Positions 3,645 to 11,920 of a stretch of 11,920 nucleotides of DNA are shown one piece after another. The notes below the pieces were generated by a model. That model made no database searches and had not been told where the DNA came from. It saw only the letters and a program-made list of their open reading frames with translations. This DNA comes from Pirellulaceae bacterium. GTDB lineage: Bacteria > Planctomycetota > Planctomycetia > Pirellulales > Pirellulaceae. Both the position numbers and the translations under genes were made by a program. Where the stretch lies: the NCBI GenBank assembly GCA_020846515.1, contig JADLDX010000284.1, positions 1-11,920 on the forward strand. The letters run 5' to 3'. Within the stretch, counting starts at the first letter, position 1. Each line of letters opens with the position of its first letter.

Positions 3645-5012
3645 ATGCAACGCAGAGAATTTGTGTCCAGTACTGCCGCACTGGCGGCAATGACAGTCCT
3701 ATCCCAACATGCTTATGCAACGGCTGTGGACAAACCACGTCGCGTCGGATTGATCGGTCCAGGTTGGTATGGCAAGTGCGATTTATTACAGCTTCTGAAC
3801 GTGGAACCGGTCGAGGTTGTCTCGTTGTGTGATGTTGATTCAAACATGCTCAACACGGCAGCCGACTTGATTCAATCACGTCAGCCTTCGGGAAAGCGAC
3901 CGCAGACGTACGCCGACTATCGTCAGATGTTGGCCAAGAAAGAGCTGGACATCGTGCTGGTAGATACACCGGACCACTGGCACGCGCTGCCGATGATCGC
4001 AGCCGTGGAATCAGGCGCTGATGTGTATTGTCAAAAGCCGACCGCTGTGGATGTGCTGGAAAGCAAAGCCATGCTGGATGCGGCGCGACGTACGCAGCGG
4101 GTGGTTCAAATCGGAACGCAGCGACGCAGTACGCCGCATTTGATCGAGGCCAAGCAACGCGTGATCGACGCAGGCCTGTTGGGCGATGTGGCTTACGCAG
4201 AAGTTTGCTGTTACTACCACATGCGCAATCGCAAGACCGTCCAGGACGCGCCCGACAAGCAACCGCCCGCCCATCTGGATTGGGACATGTGGACCGGACC
4301 AGCACCACTGAAACCCTACAACGACATTGTGCATCCGCGTGGCTGGCGAGCCTTTATGGAGTATGGCAATGGCATTGTAGGTGACATGTGCGTGCATATG
4401 CTCGACATGGTCCGCTGGATGCTCGACCTGGGATGGCCAACCTCGGTCGCCAGCTCTGGCGGCATCATGGTCGACTCGGCCGCTCGCGCCAACATCACCG
4501 ACACCCAAACCGCTACCTATCACTTTGGCAATCTGGACGTCGTCTGGACACATCGCTCTTGGGGTGCAGCACCAGACGCAGACTATCCATGGGCAGCAAT
4601 CATCTATGGCGATAAAGGTACCTTGAAGCTGAGCGTCAATCGCTACGAGTTCATTCCACAAGGCCGCGGTGAGAAGCTAAAAGGCGAAGCCGTCATCGAG
4701 TTGGACAAGTATCAGCATGATGCCGAAGATCAGAAGAAGTGGGCTCTTGAGCTACACGTGGCATCCGCTATCCGCGGCCATATGCGAGACTTCCTGAAGG
4801 CCATCGACCAGCGCAGCAAGCCCGTAGCGGATATTGAGCAAGGCCATATTTCCTCTTCAGCCTGTATCCTGGCGAATTTGTCGCAAAAGCTCGGCCGCTC
4901 ACTAAAGTTCGACCCGGTGACGCATACCATCGACAATGATGCTGAAGCTACAGCTATGCTCAAACGGACCTACCGCGCACCGTGGCAACATCCTGCTTCA
5001 ACGGGGACCTGA
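3645..5012 (+). CDS. Tat-exported Gfo/Idh/MocA-family NAD(P)-dependent oxidoreductase
   Basis: A 455-residue product starting MQRREF, with a twin-arginine motif and a short hydrophobic stretch (about 7-25, possible cleavage near AYA). This suggests folded, cofactor-loaded export to the periplasm, as is common in planctomycetes. The Rossmann nucleotide-binding motif is GPGWYG (38-43), followed by acidic residues 'CDVD' near 62-65. 'TPDHWHA' (108-114) is a subfamily marker. The usual EKP motif reads QKP (130-132), keeping the active-site Lys131. The C-terminal catalytic segment 'GDMCVHMLDMVRW' supplies Asp247, His251 and Asp254. Family members oxidise or isomerise sugars, inositols or glycoside intermediates; the substrate cannot be read from sequence. 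ATG 3645 is chosen because it gives the intact Tat motif. The next gene follows after 41 bases with no terminator, so co-transcription is likely. Confidence 0.9.
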   Translation: MQRREFVSSTAALAAMTVLSQHAYATAVDKPRRVGLIGPGWYGKCDLLQLLNVEPVEVVSLCDVDSNMLNTAADLIQSRQPSGKRPQTYADYRQMLAKKELDIVLVDTPDHWHALPMIAAVESGADVYCQKPTAVDVLESKAMLDAARRTQRVVQIGTQRRSTPHLIEAKQRVIDAGLLGDVAYAEVCCYYHMRNRKTVQDAPDKQPPAHLDWDMWTGPAPLKPYNDIVHPRGWRAFMEYGNGIVGDMCVHMLDMVRWMLDLGWPTSVASSGGIMVDSAARANITDTQTATYHFGNLDVVWTHRSWGAAPDADYPWAAIIYGDKGTLKLSVNRYEFIPQGRGEKLKGEAVIELDKYQHDAEDQKKWALELHVASAIRGHMRDFLKAIDQRSKPVADIEQGHISSSACILANLSQKLGRSLKFDPVTHTIDNDAEATAMLKRTYRAPWQHPASTGT

Positions 5013-5053
5013 AATCAGTGACGGTGCCACCGCCCTACAATTCAAGAAGACCC

Positions 5054-6655
5054 ATGAATCAATCGTTAAACTTGAGCCGAGTGATCTTGCTACTGATGTT
5101 GCTCACCTCCACAGCCTGGGCCGAGCCTACGGATCAGACATACGTCAATCCGAAGCTGTTCGATGGTGCGATTTGCATAAACACGGCCAAGGAGTTTAGC
5201 CGCCGGCAAGCCGGGCTATTGGACGCCATTCTCTCTGCGAAGCCCGATCGCCTGATCGTGGTGGGTACCAGCCAACAACGCGAAGGTTCGCCAAGTCTTG
5301 AGGTGTTGCGATCGATTAAATGGACAAGTGAGCCCAGCGAGCACTCCTCGCTGCTCGAGCATCCCGATCAGTTGCAGCAACAAATCAAAGACCTAAAGCC
5401 TGGCAGTTGCATATGGCTCAGCCAAGCGGCTTTGCCACCTGAGTCCCAAGCGGCAACGCCAGCATGGCTGCCGCCCGCACTAAGAAGTCTGCTCGACCGC
5501 GGTGGGCTGGTCTTCGTCGAAGCCACCTCTATTCCAGCCGGTAATGAAATCGCCGCTGATTTAAACCTGTTGCCCGATATACGGATTCGCAAATTGGGCG
5601 ACAAAGGCGGCCAGGAATTAGCAGCACCAAATGACAAACCCCAAGACAAGCTCAACGCTGACAAGCCCAACGCTGACAAGCCCCAAAAGAATTACGCCAC
5701 GCTCTTGGCACCTGACCATAGTTGGCTGTTCATTGGTAGTCGCGAGTTGGTGAATTTGTCGGAGGAGGGCACCACGCCTTGCCGGCTTGTGTTGCCAGCT
5801 CCTAGCAACTACCCCGAGGCGCTGAGCGAAGACATCCTTCCACGCATGCGCAGCGATTTAGTAGTCGTACGCCGCGCTCTGGAGGAACGCCAGTTGCCGG
5901 TGTTTCCATCGTCTGCCGATTACGACCCACGTTTGCCCAAAGGCAGTTTGGTGATTGTGGGCGGTGGTGGTATGTCCCAAGAGATTTGGAAAAAGTTCAT
6001 CGAATTGGCCGGCGGAGAAAATGCCAAGATCTTGGTCTTGCCAACGGCCGTGCCAGAGCCCACGGTCGAAGATGCCGACGAAGTCGATATTCTAAATCGA
6101 TTGGGAGTAAAGCAAGTGCGGGTCTTGCCGCAGGTTGCACGCGACGACGTCTCAAAGCCTGAGTACTTGGAGAATTATCGATGGGCGACGGGCATCTGGT
6201 TCGGAGGTGGACGCCAATGGCGTTTCGTCGATGCCTATTGGGGTACTCCCGCCTGGCAAGAGATTAAACAAGTCGTGGCGCGCGGCGGAGTAATTGCCGG
6301 CAGTTCGGCCGGCGCGACCATCCAAGGTGACCTACTGGTGCGCGGTCATCCGCTGGGCAACCAAATCATGGTGGCCGACGGCTACCGACGCGGTCTGGGG
6401 CTACTGCCAGGCGTGGCCATCGACCAGCATTTCAGTCAACGCAACCGTTTCGATGATTTGGCCAGCGTCGTCAAACGCTTTCCGAAAGTCATCGGCATCG
6501 GCATTGACGAAGCCACGGCTCTAGTGGTCCAAGCTCCCAATCAATGTTCGGTGTTAGGCAAAGGCAGCGTCTGGCTGACGCTGCCCGTATCCGGCGACGC
6601 CCAACGCATGTACTTAGAGAAGGCTACCGGCAGCCAATTCGAGCTGACACGCTGA
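5054..6655 (+). CDS. Secreted peptidase S51, cyanophycinase-like, with an extra N-terminal domain
   Basis: Serine hydrolase of the S51 (cyanophycinase/dipeptidase E) family. I start it at ATG 5054 (533 residues) because that gives a clean signal peptide (hydrophobic 9-19, cleavage after AWA near 23). The in-frame GTG at 4982 would overlap the upstream gene and bury the signal. Residues 30-280 resemble a second, degenerate glutamine-amidotransferase-like fold and include a charged repeat linker (about 193-212). The S51 core runs from about 295 to 500: GGGG (303-306), GGGRQ (384-388), nucleophile elbow GSSAGA with Ser418, DQHF (457-460) with His459, and GIDEATA with Glu486. The Ser-His-Glu spacings agree with the Ser132-His174-Glu201 triad I recall for Synechocystis CphB. 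Known enzymes release beta-Asp-Arg dipeptides from cyanophycin; the substrate here is unproven. Confidence 0.85.
   Translation: MNQSLNLSRVILLLMLLTSTAWAEPTDQTYVNPKLFDGAICINTAKEFSRRQAGLLDAILSAKPDRLIVVGTSQQREGSPSLEVLRSIKWTSEPSEHSSLLEHPDQLQQQIKDLKPGSCIWLSQAALPPESQAATPAWLPPALRSLLDRGGLVFVEATSIPAGNEIAADLNLLPDIRIRKLGDKGGQELAAPNDKPQDKLNADKPNADKPQKNYATLLAPDHSWLFIGSRELVNLSEEGTTPCRLVLPAPSNYPEALSEDILPRMRSDLVVVRRALEERQLPVFPSSADYDPRLPKGSLVIVGGGGMSQEIWKKFIELAGGENAKILVLPTAVPEPTVEDADEVDILNRLGVKQVRVLPQVARDDVSKPEYLENYRWATGIWFGGGRQWRFVDAYWGTPAWQEIKQVVARGGVIAGSSAGATIQGDLLVRGHPLGNQIMVADGYRRGLGLLPGVAIDQHFSQRNRFDDLASVVKRFPKVIGIGIDEATALVVQAPNQCSVLGKGSVWLTLPVSGDAQRMYLEKATGSQFELTR
5654..5683 (+). repeat. 15-base exact tandem repeat coding a charged linker
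   Basis: The unit AACGCTGACAAGCCC occurs twice back to back (5654-5668 and 5669-5683), coding NADKP-NADKP. Related DKP-type codons lie just before it (PNDKPQDKL). It lengthens a hydrophilic linker inside the N-terminal half of the S51 protein and could vary in copy number among strains without breaking the frame. Confidence 0.8.
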
Positions 6656-6784: not shown

Positions 6785-7564
6785 CTACGTCGTTAGCGGC
6801 AGTGGGCTATCGGCGAAATCTTCATAGACTTGTTGGATCGTTCTGGCGTCCAACTGTTCGCGACAGACCAGGCAGCGCACGCGTGCTCGACGAATGACTC
6901 CCTTCTCCATGAAGTTGCCGAACAATCGCAAACGCGTGATGCCCTCGCCGGTCAACAGCTCCGTTTGCGGCTGGTCGCTAGGATGGATCAAGATGGCGAT
7001 AGAGCCGCGTTGGCTTTGACAGGTTAACATCCCCACCGCGTTATGAACCAGCGACGCATCGCCATCGATTGCCAGGCCATCACCATCAAAAGCTTTCCAT
7101 TGGCTGTCGGATACTTGGTTAGACAATTCAAGCGTGGGATATGAATCCAACAGTTGAGTTTGCACGCTTAGCCATATATCCAAACCACAGCTCTGCTTTC
7201 CGGGACTCAAGAACTGCCCTGTCGATGAGTCCGCGGATGGAACAGCGCGATAGTCGAGTTGAAAAGCGAATTGATCAGCGTTCGATTGGCCATAACGCAC
7301 CATTAAATCGCTGCCTCGGGCGAACCAGTCGTCGATCTGACAAGCGTGGCCCGGAATAGGGTTCACCTTCAGAAGATGTCCAAGCATGAGCCGCGACTGG
7401 GCACATGTGTATCGGCAAGCGACTCCGGAGTTGGGTTGGCTCATGTCCAGCGACCATTGCCAATCGGCGGAGTCAAGCGTGGCCATCTGGCCGGTCACGG
7501 ACCATTGCATGATCAAAGCATTTCTCGTAGGAGGGATGTCTTCCAGCGGCTTGATGTTATCCAA
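6785..7564 (-). CDS. Conserved-looking protein of unknown function
   Basis: I do not recognise this family. The frame gives 259 residues from a TTG at 7564; the next in-frame start is ATG at 7510 (Met19, 241 residues). No convincing Shine-Dalgarno sequence precedes either. The frame stays open well upstream but without any ATG, GTG or TTG, and that stretch runs through a GC-rich palindrome, so it is unlikely to be coding. The product has no signal peptide or membrane helix. It is Gln-, Asp- and Trp-containing with alternating hydrophobic patterns that suggest mostly beta structure, and it has one CxxC (Cys231, Cys234) near the C-terminus. It lies between the S51 hydrolase (convergent) and the ABC exporter (divergent, sharing the upstream region), which hints at a shared process without showing one. 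Coding is supported by length, sensible composition and the convergent terminator. Confidence 0.65.
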   Translation of the reverse strand: MDNIKPLEDIPPTRNALIMQWSVTGQMATLDSADWQWSLDMSQPNSGVACRYTCAQSRLMLGHLLKVNPIPGHACQIDDWFARGSDLMVRYGQSNADQFAFQLDYRAVPSADSSTGQFLSPGKQSCGLDIWLSVQTQLLDSYPTLELSNQVSDSQWKAFDGDGLAIDGDASLVHNAVGMLTCQSQRGSIAILIHPSDQPQTELLTGEGITRLRLFGNFMEKGVIRRARVRCLVCREQLDARTIQQVYEDFADSPLPLTT

Positions 7565-7780: not shown

Positions 7781-10700
7781 GTGGAAACGAAATCGATAGT
7801 CACAGGCCGGACAATAAACCTTTTATGGAGATTGCGTCACTTGATCAGCACGGTACTGGTACCAGCCATGGTACGCGGTTGTTTGGACAATCATGGACTG
7901 AATCATCGCCCGATTCTGCTAGCACTAGACACCGATGTCGACCTGGCAGGTCGCAACGCTCGACAGTGGCTGGTGATCACCCCTGATCACTATTCGCTGG
8001 TCGAAGAATCGACCGTAGGCTCTAGCGAGCCGAAATCACTCCACGGCACTACGGCCATCTCGGGACGAGATACTGGCCCATCTCCCACCAACCCAGTTCA
8101 GGGTTTATCGCTGGTAAATGCAGAGGAAGCACCGTATGGGTCTGCAGGATCTGTGGCATCCGGCGCTGCTGGACTAAGCCCTGGCGCGCGGTTGCTGCGG
8201 CATGTGGCCACGGCTGAAGTGACATCGGCGCGCACTCACACGGGCGTTGGTTCCGGTGTTTTGCAGTTGAAGATCGACGGCCAGTGGATCGACTGGCTAC
8301 GCTATTCCAATGCTATGGCCACACGCTTTCACAAAGTGTCGCGCATGATTGAGCGATATTGTGAGCAAGGCTATGCCGCTGAGTTGCTAGCGTTGGTGCC
8401 GAGTGAAGATTCTAAACTGGATCCTCATCGTTGCCCCAAGTGCAACCTGCGTTTGAATTCAGCCACGGAAAGTTGTCCTCGGTGCGTACCCAAAGGCCAA
8501 ATAGCTCGTCGCGTTATTGATCTGCTGCGGCCGTATAGACGCGGTGCCCTGATGCTGTGCGCGCTAACAGTCGTCGGCGTGGCGGCTGAGCTGATTCCGC
8601 CCAAGCTACAGCAGACCATGGTCGACAACATTCTAACGACGCCCATCGCCAACCACACACCAGCAGTAGCCACGGGATCGACCACCGCCATTACCACCGG
8701 ATCAACAACATCCTCTGGGCCTGATGGCGCGGTTGGTCAAGTCCCCCCGGTGCCGGTGACAGAGCAGGTCGATTTCAAAACCGCTTTGCTGGTAGTTGTG
8801 TTGGCTTTGGCCATGTCGCGCGTGCTGCTGTCGGTAGTAGCTGTATTCAAGGGACATCTCGCGACGCGCATTGGTACTGGACTGACCAGTACCCTGCGCG
8901 CTCAGATGGTTGAAAAGCTGCAGAAGTTAGCCATCGCTTATTATGATCGTCATCAGGTTGGGTCGATGCTCAGCCGCGTGGCTCACGACAGCGAAGTGCT
9001 GCATGGTTTGATGCACCAATTCACCGGTGGTTTTCTGTTGCAAATTGTGCAACTGTTTGGTGTGGGAGCGATGTTATTGTGGATCAACCCCAAGCTGGCC
9101 ATGTTTACGTTGATCCCAGTGCCCTTGGTTTTTCTGGGCTCTTGGATCTTTTGGCGCAAAGTCTATCCTCGGCACTACCGGTTGTGGGATGCATCCAGCA
9201 AACAAATGTCGGTGCTCAGCGGCATGCTGTCAGGCATTCGCGTAGTCAAGGCATTTGCCCAGGAAGACCGTGAGTTCGCCCGGTTTCGAACGGCCAGCGA
9301 TCAGCTGCGAGATTGGCGATTGTGGGTTGAATCGACCAATGCGAACTATTCAGCGGCCATGCAGATCGTGTTTAGTTTGGGCGGCCTGATTGTGTGGTAC
9401 GTGGGCGGCCGCGACGTGATTGGTCACGACATGACTCTTGGACAATTGATTGCCTTTCTGGCCTATCTGGCCATGTTCTACGCGCCGCTAAGCGCTCTAT
9501 CAAGCTTTACGACCTGGCTGACCAGCTTTCTATCGGGTAGCCAGCGCGTGCTGGAACTGCTCGACACCCCACTGGCTATCGATGAACCCAAACAACCTCA
9601 AGCTTGGAACGATCCCCAGGGAGCCATTCGTTTTACCAATGTGTCGTTCGGTTACGATCGAAATCAACCTGTCCTCAAGAACATCTCCTTTGATGTCGCG
9701 GCCGGTGAGATGGTGGGTATTGTCGGACGCAGTGGTTCAGGCAAGACGACCATGGTGAATCTACTGGGCCGTTTCTACGATGTACAAGAAGGGAGTATCA
9801 CGGTCGATGGCATCGACATTCGGAATATCTCCCGACAACAGTTGCGAGAGCGTCTAGGCATTGTCTTTCAGGATTCATTCCTGTTTCGCGGTACGATCTG
9901 GAAGAATTTGTCCTATGGAAAACCTGACACTCTCATTGAAGCCGGTATCTCCGCGGCAAAGGCTGCGGGGGCCCATGATTTTATTTGCCGTCAATCGCTG
10001 GCCTATGAGACGTTGCTAGGTGAACACGGGGCGGGTTTGTCGGGCGGCGAAAAACAACGGCTGTCGATCGCGCGCACATTGCTATACGACCCACGCATTC
10101 TGGTGCTGGACGAAGCGACAAGCAACATTGATGCGGAAGCCGAACGTAGCATTCAGCAGGCTTTGGAGGTGTTGATTCGTGGTCGCACGACGGTGGCCAT
10201 CGCCCACCGTTTGTCTACCTTACGCAACGCCGATCGTATCCTGGTATTCGATCGTGGCATGTTGGCCGAACAAGGCTCACACACTGAACTGCTCAACCAA
10301 GATGGCATCTATGCCAAGTTAGTGCGCATGCAAACACAAGTGACGAAAGCACCGTCGGTCGACAGCCTGCTGACAGAACCGACTGCTACGCAAGCGCGCG
10401 CGGTAGAAAGCGGTAGCGATACCGCCGTGGCCACTTTGGCTCAACCTACCGTTGCCACCAAGAGTCGGCGAATCGCAGAACCCTCTATCCAAAGGAACCC
10501 TACCGAGGAACTGGAGCCCAAAAAGAACTTTATTCAGTGGCTGGATCCGAATGAATGCCAGTTTAAGCACGGGCCCTATGGTCAATTGGAAGTTTGGCGC
10601 CATGGTGAGTGTATTGGGCGAAGTGTGTTTGTATTACGAACTTTCCCAGCTACTCATCGCGATGCGTACTTGAGTATTCGCGGTTGGTGCGAAGGCAACG

Positions 10701-11032
10701 AAGAGATAGAAGTAGGTATGATTCGCCAGTTGGAGAATTGGTCTGCAGAATCGCAGCAGTTGATCAATGAGAGCTTGGATCGGCGTTACCTGCTGCGGGA
10801 AATCAAGAGCGTCTCCAACATCACACTCAGCCATGGATTCCTGAATCTTGAAGTCGACACCAACAGCGGGCCTCAACGCTTTACCATGCGGTGGACACAG
10901 AGTCAGGCAATGGATTTCGGCGACAACGGCAAATTGATGATCGATAGCGAAGAGAATCGTTACCTGGTGCGCGACATAGACGCTTTACCTGCTCGCGATC
11001 GCGAACGCTTCTTGCAGTATGTGTATTGGTAA
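7781..11032 (+). CDS. ABC exporter fused to DUF1854 (cyanophycin-associated type), with N-terminal domain and zinc ribbon
   Basis: A 1083-residue inner-membrane ATP-driven exporter. Order: an N-terminal beta-rich, possibly PH-like domain (about 40-195) interrupted by a Gly/Ser/Pro-rich insert (80-135); a zinc ribbon at Cys218, 221, 232, 235; a type-I exporter membrane domain (about 245-590, six helices, first near 255-275) with a Thr/Ser-rich loop at 285-330; an ATPase domain (615-850) with Walker A GRSGSGKTT (649-657), Q-loop Gln697, signature LSGGEKQR (753-760), Walker B ILVLDEATS (773-781) and His809; a variable linker (851-912); and a DUF1854 domain (about 915-1083) ending 'RYLVRDIDAL...'. 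All ATPase motifs are intact. I recall DUF1854 and this ABC type as separate genes in cyanophycin loci. The start is uncertain: GTG 7781, TTG 7841 (GGAG 10 bases upstream) or ATG 7868; the recognisable domain begins after all three. The cargo is unknown. Confidence 0.9.
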   Translation: METKSIVTGRTINLLWRLRHLISTVLVPAMVRGCLDNHGLNHRPILLALDTDVDLAGRNARQWLVITPDHYSLVEESTVGSSEPKSLHGTTAISGRDTGPSPTNPVQGLSLVNAEEAPYGSAGSVASGAAGLSPGARLLRHVATAEVTSARTHTGVGSGVLQLKIDGQWIDWLRYSNAMATRFHKVSRMIERYCEQGYAAELLALVPSEDSKLDPHRCPKCNLRLNSATESCPRCVPKGQIARRVIDLLRPYRRGALMLCALTVVGVAAELIPPKLQQTMVDNILTTPIANHTPAVATGSTTAITTGSTTSSGPDGAVGQVPPVPVTEQVDFKTALLVVVLALAMSRVLLSVVAVFKGHLATRIGTGLTSTLRAQMVEKLQKLAIAYYDRHQVGSMLSRVAHDSEVLHGLMHQFTGGFLLQIVQLFGVGAMLLWINPKLAMFTLIPVPLVFLGSWIFWRKVYPRHYRLWDASSKQMSVLSGMLSGIRVVKAFAQEDREFARFRTASDQLRDWRLWVESTNANYSAAMQIVFSLGGLIVWYVGGRDVIGHDMTLGQLIAFLAYLAMFYAPLSALSSFTTWLTSFLSGSQRVLELLDTPLAIDEPKQPQAWNDPQGAIRFTNVSFGYDRNQPVLKNISFDVAAGEMVGIVGRSGSGKTTMVNLLGRFYDVQEGSITVDGIDIRNISRQQLRERLGIVFQDSFLFRGTIWKNLSYGKPDTLIEAGISAAKAAGAHDFICRQSLAYETLLGEHGAGLSGGEKQRLSIARTLLYDPRILVLDEATSNIDAEAERSIQQALEVLIRGRTTVAIAHRLSTLRNADRILVFDRGMLAEQGSHTELLNQDGIYAKLVRMQTQVTKAPSVDSLLTEPTATQARAVESGSDTAVATLAQPTVATKSRRIAEPSIQRNPTEELEPKKNFIQWLDPNECQFKHGPYGQLEVWRHGECIGRSVFVLRTFPATHRDAYLSIRGWCEGNEEIEVGMIRQLENWSAESQQLINESLDRRYLLREIKSVSNITLSHGFLNLEVDTNSGPQRFTMRWTQSQAMDFGDNGKLMIDSEENRYLVRDIDALPARDRERFLQYVYW
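8672..8710 (+). repeat. Thr/Ser-rich short repeat in the first exporter loop
   Basis: The codons for TGSTT occur at 8672-8686 and again at 8696-8710, a 24-base offset with diverged third positions. They lie in the hydrophilic stretch between membrane helices 1 and 2, which is unusually long for a type-I exporter. Diverged duplication is a likely origin. Confidence 0.5.
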
Positions 11033-11063: not shown

Positions 11064-11920
11064 TTAGAACTTCCATCGCAATTCGACGCGATTGCCGACA
11101 ATATCGTCGGCATTTCGCAGGAAGCCAACCATGCTGTCGGTTCTGAAAATCCAACGATGGCTGAGTGGTCGTTGGTACCGGACGCCCAGCGCGTATTGAT
11201 CGCCTATAACTCGGCGAAAAGTGTCACTGCCGTAGGAACCCAGCGCCGCCGCTTCAAGCACCAGTTGATCGCTGAAGTTAGCGCCCAGCATGTTCACGCC
11301 CAGCGCGGCACCATAGGTATTGGCAGCCGTGGGATCCAAGGTGGGATAGCCGGTCAAGGCATCGGTTTCGAAATTGATGCCAGTGTTTCGAAGTATACCG
11401 CCCGCCCCGGCGGCACGGGCCGCGCTTTGCGGACGCCCCGAACCATAGAACAGGTTGCAGTAAGGGACGAAGGTATTGGGCGAAGAACTGATCAGCGAGT
11501 TCTCGACCAGCAGCAGATATCCATCGGCGGTGCGTTGTGCGTCAGGCAGATCCTGACCGAAGTTGGTTATGAATCGAACGGAGTTGGATAGACGCATCAG
11601 ATAGCGTCGCGTGAAGGCCACTGCAAAGTTGTTATAGCTGCGCCCGCGACCAACATCGTCGTGGATATACGCGTAGTCCAACTCGAAATAGCCGTCATAG
11701 GCTTCGATAAACCAAGCCGTGCCCAACATCTCTGCCGCTGAATTGCTGCCCGCGAACGCATCACTGGTAATTTGATCCACTGCGGCAAAGAAGGTGGCAT
11801 CAAAATTCGACCAATGCAATGCCGAACTATGACGTGACGGCACGGCGAACGCAGCCCCCAACACCGCATCTTCCATCCAAATACCGTTCTGATACAGCAG
11901 CGGTACCAAACCAAATGTAA
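11064..11920 (-). CDS. Outer-membrane beta-barrel protein, C-terminal portion (5' end outside window)
   Basis: The reverse frame is open to the right edge (11918 and beyond), so the TTG at 11909 is not a trustworthy start and the signal peptide is not visible. About 284 residues remain. They show alternating hydrophobic/polar strands rich in Tyr, Phe, Gly and Asn ('GYFELDYAYIHDD', 'YGAALGVNMLGANF', 'YALGVRYQRPL') and end in RWKF, the C-terminal aromatic residue typical of outer-membrane barrels recognised by the BAM machinery. No specific porin family is recognised. The gene is convergent with the ABC exporter, separated by only 31 bases (11033-11063) with no clear terminator, so the two transcripts may overlap. 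Role: pore or surface barrel, substrate unknown. Confidence 0.72.
   Translation of the reverse strand, partial: TFGLVPLLYQNGIWMEDAVLGAAFAVPSRHSSALHWSNFDATFFAAVDQITSDAFAGSNSAAEMLGTAWFIEAYDGYFELDYAYIHDDVGRGRSYNNFAVAFTRRYLMRLSNSVRFITNFGQDLPDAQRTADGYLLLVENSLISSSPNTFVPYCNLFYGSGRPQSAARAAGAGGILRNTGINFETDALTGYPTLDPTAANTYGAALGVNMLGANFSDQLVLEAAALGSYGSDTFRRVIGDQYALGVRYQRPLSHRWIFRTDSMVGFLRNADDIVGNRVELRWKF

Follow-up and report, generated by a model that had tools for sequence, protein, structure and literature searches.

Domain architecture of the fused chain

The window, that is, the whole stretch of 11,920 nucleotides analyzed here (Pirellulaceae bacterium, contig JADLDX010000284.1), harbors at 7781..11032 on the plus strand an open reading frame of 1083 codons with a GTG start at 7781, in which an ABC exporter is fused to a DUF1854 domain. 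The assignment of the start codon carries an uncertainty of roughly 20 codons: translation may in fact begin near 7841, and the database copy of the protein comprises 1063 amino acids. Upstream on the plus strand, a cyanophycinase-family (S51) protein is encoded at 4982..6655 (TIGR02069, 144.4 bits, cut-off 126.6), described here as context only, and a minus-strand frame (6785-7564, 259 aa) is located between both genes. At E 0.01, neither this frame nor the minus-strand frame at 11064-11918 (approximately 284 aa) had a match in Pfam or NCBIfam. In addition, the window encodes MMPL, QueG and a Gfo/Idh/MocA protein. By eye, the protein encoded at 4982-6655 has an extended N-terminal region and a segment resembling a signal peptide.

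When the 1083-codon chain was subjected to Pfam analysis, ABC_membrane (residues 315-570), ABC_tran (632-781) and DUF1854 (948-1075) were detected, all above their cut-offs. All parts of the chain described below lie on the plus strand. The transmembrane domain (8543..9502) is that of a type IV ABC exporter, as assigned from ABC_membrane and from six hydrophobic stretches in the hydropathy profile. The ATPase or nucleotide-binding domain (NBD, 9674..10123) was assigned from ABC_tran and its motifs: Walker A at 9725, the Q-loop at 9863, the signature LSGGE at 10037 and Walker B at 10097, with the H-loop at 10202 just past the end of the Pfam match. The chain is therefore an ABC exporter by both domains and by Walker A, Q-loop, signature, Walker B and H-loop. 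A sequence-only reading had described one intact frame of ABC exporter, Cys4 motif and DUF1854 with complete ATPase motifs, and this observation is confirmed over the 1083 codons.

The DUF1854 domain (10622..11005), which the same reading had placed in the C-terminus, was recovered there by PF08909 with 73.7 bits against a gathering cut-off of 26.8, and its predicted model has a pLDDT of 93.7. It is a plain member of PF08909, from which no difference was seen; the Pfam text for this family presumably mentions ABC C-termini. A search for a solved relative by sequence found none, and comparison of the predicted fold gave no clear match. To our knowledge, no function is known for DUF1854, and the term was absent from the literature searched. 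NBD and DUF1854 are connected by a tether (10358..10621, start approximate). A variable linker of about 60 residues had been proposed; variability was borne out by 40 fused chains (54-118 residues, median 72), but the length in the window chain is approximately 98.

Upstream of the membrane domain, a PH-like domain is predicted at 7919..8368. Its model is a seven-stranded barrel with a C-terminal helix that matches solved PH folds and would be PH-like by structure. The suggestion of a PH-like N-terminal domain is upheld by this predicted fold, but not by Pfam, which at E up to 1 returned no PH family for any of 26 N-domains; in this, the N-domains differ from the bacterial PH domains of PDB 3hsa, 3dcx and 3b77. 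An insert of about 60 residues (8009..8185), modeled with low pLDDT, stands out in the alignment, where almost every relative has a shorter version or lacks it. Between PH-like and membrane domain lies a zinc-ribbon-like Cys4 motif, CPKC-x10-CPRC (8432..8485). The four cysteines are invariant in the 26 aligned N-domains, a sample chosen for having the motif; among ABC chains of at least 600 residues, the motif is present in 35 of the 40 fused chains and in 16 of the 22 split ones. Matches of the N-domains to Pfam DZR and DZR_2 were weak (best 0.0023; window DZR 14.2 bits, cut-off 27.3).

Membrane domain and NBD of the window resemble MsbA-type exporters (412 bits with TIGR02203, 408 bits with TIGR02204). 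However, these scores are below the cut-offs of 602 and 780.4, and the PH-like domain, the Cys4 motif and DUF1854 are additional to the MsbA-type architecture.

Distribution of the fused chain

A protein search with the window chain, in which 7999 candidates were scored, yielded 1259 relatives. Among the matches listed, 119 of 120 (the window's own included) contained PF08909 together with both ABC domains. The lone exception among them, P0012, runs into a shifted frame where DUF1854 begins and ends there, and the remainder is carried by P0152, whose contig has the same length; this close relative is probably frame-shifted. In named genomes, 80 loci were collected by a DUF1854 peptide pattern. 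ABC motifs and DUF1854 were found in the same frame in 68 of these, four lacked a shared frame and eight were cut by contig ends. In one of the four (L183) the frame is broken inside the ABC part, yet the ABC signature is still joined to DUF1854. The named loci are mostly labelled as planctomycete MAGs, with some Kuenenia and one TA06, and include the named strain Lacipirellula limnantheis I41 (L218), in which the gene is fused. Among the loci fetched from the window's order and scored as fused type, 37 of 38 had ABC and DUF1854 in one frame, most of the 38 having been picked for a long open frame. The two sets overlap in many contigs and are not independent. Fusion is not unusual.

It was also considered whether the one-chain form is an assembly artefact or results from a lost stop codon. 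P0012/P0152 and L141, with their parts in different frames, and the broken frame of L183 would fit this explanation. It is nevertheless contradicted by the single frame in 37/38 order loci and 68/80 named loci, which refutes it for the lineage and leaves it very improbable for the window chain. The possibility of a frameshift in close relatives, raised in the sequence-only reading, was probably realized in P0012/P0152; the large majority of the named loci keep one frame.

For the count of fused loci, a locus was called fused when ABC and DUF1854 lie in the same frame. Open-frame length was rejected as a test for fusion, since a frame of 981 codons (G096:C326) turned out to be a shadow frame that overlies the ABC gene of a split locus.

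In three loci labelled Verrucomicrobia or Akkermansiaceae (L212, L220, L224) a fused chain is likewise present, and its DUF1854 shares 49-53% identity with that of the window; these reflect either transfer or wrong binning. In the control genomes, DUF1854 exceeded its cut-off in 1 of 14, the archaeon Sulfolobus acidocaldarius. Plasmid records searched with the window's DUF1854 gave no match. With DUF1854 of the CphA-associated type one match was obtained, on a plasmid of Gemmatirosa kalamazoonensis, where no CphA match lies within 16 kb and an ABC gene is located upstream.

Position of the ABC gene relative to DUF1854

According to the sequence-only reading, DUF1854 and its ABC transporter are usually separate neighbors. 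Of 32 loci from the phylum, inspected over 20 kb where available, 21 have an ABC gene directly upstream on the same strand (L053 and L066 as pieces), and two (L067 and L068) are fused. In L050 the ABC gene is on the other strand, beyond the cphA genes. No ABC gene was found beside DUF1854 in eight of the 30 non-fused loci (L040, L043, L046, L062, L064, L069, L070, L071), so a neighboring ABC may not be required by DUF1854 in every case; the DUF1854 match of L071 falls below the cut-off. By eye, L062 and L064 contain a RecA-like frame a few kb upstream. Split loci of the order, for which only 1.5 kb of flank was available (n=30), had ABC directly upstream in 21 cases and not in nine. The neighborhood link between ABC and DUF1854 is strong, not absolute.

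For 18 split loci other than the cyanophycin-linked ones, the surrounding genes (99 neighbors) were compared by blastp. A few pairs crossed families, no neighbor set occurred in more than two loci, and the context points to no particular substrate or function. At the fused loci, an all-against-all comparison of neighboring frames gave sets that mostly stay within one family, several of them being shadow frames.

Phylogeny and co-inheritance

A tree was built from 66 ABC cores. Of its 40 fused chains, 39 group with one split row (L141) in a single clade (support 100/99), which sits inside a grade of two-gene pairs. The rows nearest outside this clade (L055, L058, L063, L065) consist of two genes side by side. 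In L141 the two parts are in different frames; this chain was either split again or frame-shifted. The remaining fused chain, L067 (genome G008, family f11), is an independent second fusion in a different family and without the Cys4 motif; it clusters with split pairs from the same family as itself in the ABC tree (97/92) as well as in the DUF1854 tree (93/71). The fusion has one main origin, and L067 arose independently.

The DUF1854 tree (42 rows) recovered the same main groups as the ABC tree, although the placement of L055 varies with the root. Across the 26 split rows in which an ABC gene is present, DUF1854 and ABC distances were correlated with r 0.87 (reached in 0 of 2000 permutations), a value that also reflects shared species history. 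Six paralogues from three genomes were compared individually: the nearest ABC and the nearest DUF1854 row were the same in three, in the same group in one and in different groups in two (L041, L055). The distance correlation is the strongest evidence here for DUF1854 and ABC being one unit. The sequence-only reading had instead taken the natural fusion as strong evidence that the parts act together; joint action is supported by the correlation, whereas fusion alone gives weaker support.

Proposed role of DUF1854 in the exporter

The best reading of these data, which we favor with moderate confidence, is that DUF1854 serves as the tethered cytoplasmic subunit of a type IV ABC exporter. The domains, the single frame, the main origin of the fusion and the co-inheritance of the pair are direct results. 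Beyond these, we infer that the gene product would be an MsbA-like (type IV) half-transporter, forming a homodimer in the cytoplasmic membrane and acting in the export direction. On the cytoplasmic side, each chain would carry the PH-like domain and the zinc-ribbon-like motif N-terminal to the membrane domain, and DUF1854 C-terminal to the ATPase. DUF1854 would be an accessory subunit of this exporter branch that is usually supplied from a neighboring gene. In the fused form, the flexible tether would fix it to the ATPase, placing two copies per dimer near the nucleotide-binding domains. There it would most likely bind cargo or a cytoplasmic partner, coupling either to the ATPase cycle. The earlier interpretation of the fused chain, in which DUF1854 would sit next to the ATPase and could gate or load the exporter, is partly supported; gating or loading would be a candidate role.

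Alternatively, DUF1854 might be a stabilizer or assembly factor, for instance in membrane targeting or as a dimer clamp, rather than a cargo binder or gate. Such a function would likewise explain why its distances track those of the ABC partner, and would agree with the 18 split loci, around which no common pathway was seen. However, the length and variability of the tether fit a mobile domain no worse than a clamp, and we consider this alternative rather unlikely.

The window chain is a conserved, uncharacterized exporter of the planctomycete line and of known kind. Co-inheritance with one ABC exporter branch, whether separate or fused, makes DUF1854 a testable candidate for a transporter subunit.

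Relation to the cyanophycin-linked split pair

NCBIfam already names a split pair of this type, the cyanophycin metabolism-associated ABC family NF052233 and the DUF1854 family protein NF052234. This pair and the window chain are alike in N-domain, homologous ABC core and DUF1854; the pair is split and located by cphA, whereas the window chain, a fusion, falls into a different clade. The CphA-linked chains tested (L050, L143, L144) lack the Cys4 motif that the window chain has. CphA-linked ABCs form a distant, separate clade in the 66-row tree, and the CphA-linked DUF1854 rows are one clade as well (100/98).

To survey CphA and DUF1854, 244 genomes of the phylum (CphA limit E 1e-150) and 296 of the order (E 1e-120) were drawn. 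At these limits the CphA model matched 1 of 14 controls (Deinobacterium chartae), compared with 14/14 at E 1e-3. In the phylum draw DUF1854 was found in 26 genomes, CphA in 33 and both in five, all five in the window's class; in the order draw the numbers were 124 and 99. The split type was assigned to 105 order genomes and the fused type to 66, with 47 genomes counted in both numbers; the assignment used the DUF1854 score (at least 106 versus at most 101.7 bits), frame-checked only in fetched loci and with matches beyond the listed rows counted as fused type. With relatedness ignored, CphA was present in 94 of 105 genomes with the split type and in 5 of 191 without it, so that 94 of the 99 CphA genomes have the split type; for the fused type the association is looser, with CphA in 44 of 66 genomes with it versus 55 of 230 without. 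Genomes with the fused type only had CphA in 4 of 19 cases, the window's genome included.

Split DUF1854 genes were found near CphA genes in L050, L040, L043, L143 and L144. An ABC gene was present in L050, L143 and L144, and none was found within the stretch examined in L040 and L043. L144 passes both family cut-offs (NF052233 1032.7, cut-off 880; NF052234 164.6, cut-off 150); L050 passes NF052233 (1018.2) and is below the cut-off of NF052234 (140.4). The window chain (518), the fused chains L113 (531) and L067 (514) and the split L065 (615) all remain below 880. A passage of PMC10687191 reports two cphA genes and an ABC transporter as one cluster, and passages of PMC10206079 mention only transporters of cyanophycin-scavenging loci.

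The fused chain could itself be a cyanophycin transporter, for polymer or dipeptide, and partner of the neighboring cyanophycinase-family enzyme. Consistent with this, its top NCBIfam match is the cyanophycin metabolism-associated ABC family, the cyanophycinase-family gene lies upstream, and the window's genome encodes a CphA over the family cut-off (G000:C17:3-2294) and a weaker CphA-like protein (G000:C526:44-2065; L072 and L073). On the other hand, the 518 bits are far under 880, compared with 1018 and 1033 for two CphA-linked split ABCs, cphA adjacency is lacking on the window's contig, and the fused form has a clade of its own, with CphA in few of the fused-only genomes. No homologue of the cyanophycinase-family protein was found by tblastn (E 1e-5) near 38 fused-type or 80 named loci, sets that overlap and include some short stretches. 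The neighbor is moreover one of four paralogues in its genome, separated from the ABC gene by the minus-strand frame, and its family model matched 5 of 14 control genomes and hence describes a broad family. The proposed link was set back by family cut-off, tree, neighborhoods and paralogues alike; a cyanophycin role for the window chain is possible but not favored, and we rate it as improbable.

On a wider reading, DUF1854 would define a broad class of ABC exporters that have a cytoplasmic subunit devoted to cargo. The cyanophycin-linked pair would be one specialized branch of this class and the fused Pirellulales chain a second, exporting another non-ribosomal or charged polymer with synthesis genes elsewhere. 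Taken as a whole, this is a speculative proposal that we think doubtful. What is gained at present is that the fused paralogue is told apart from the cyanophycin-linked split pair, together with the evidence for co-inheritance. The close association between the split paralogue and cyanophycin synthetase within a single order offers a second test system, and raises the question why a storage-polymer pathway retains an ABC transporter.

The second CphA-like protein of the window's genome (648 bits, 703 aa) has a Mur-ligase P-loop that looks degraded by eye. No cphA gene lies on the 11.9-kb contig, which ends 0.9 kb past the fused gene. This genome, which is 81% complete, yielded no clear ABC of the split type from the cyanophycin branch; contig C891 encodes a 200-residue ATPase piece that is 47% identical to a split-type ABC of that branch.
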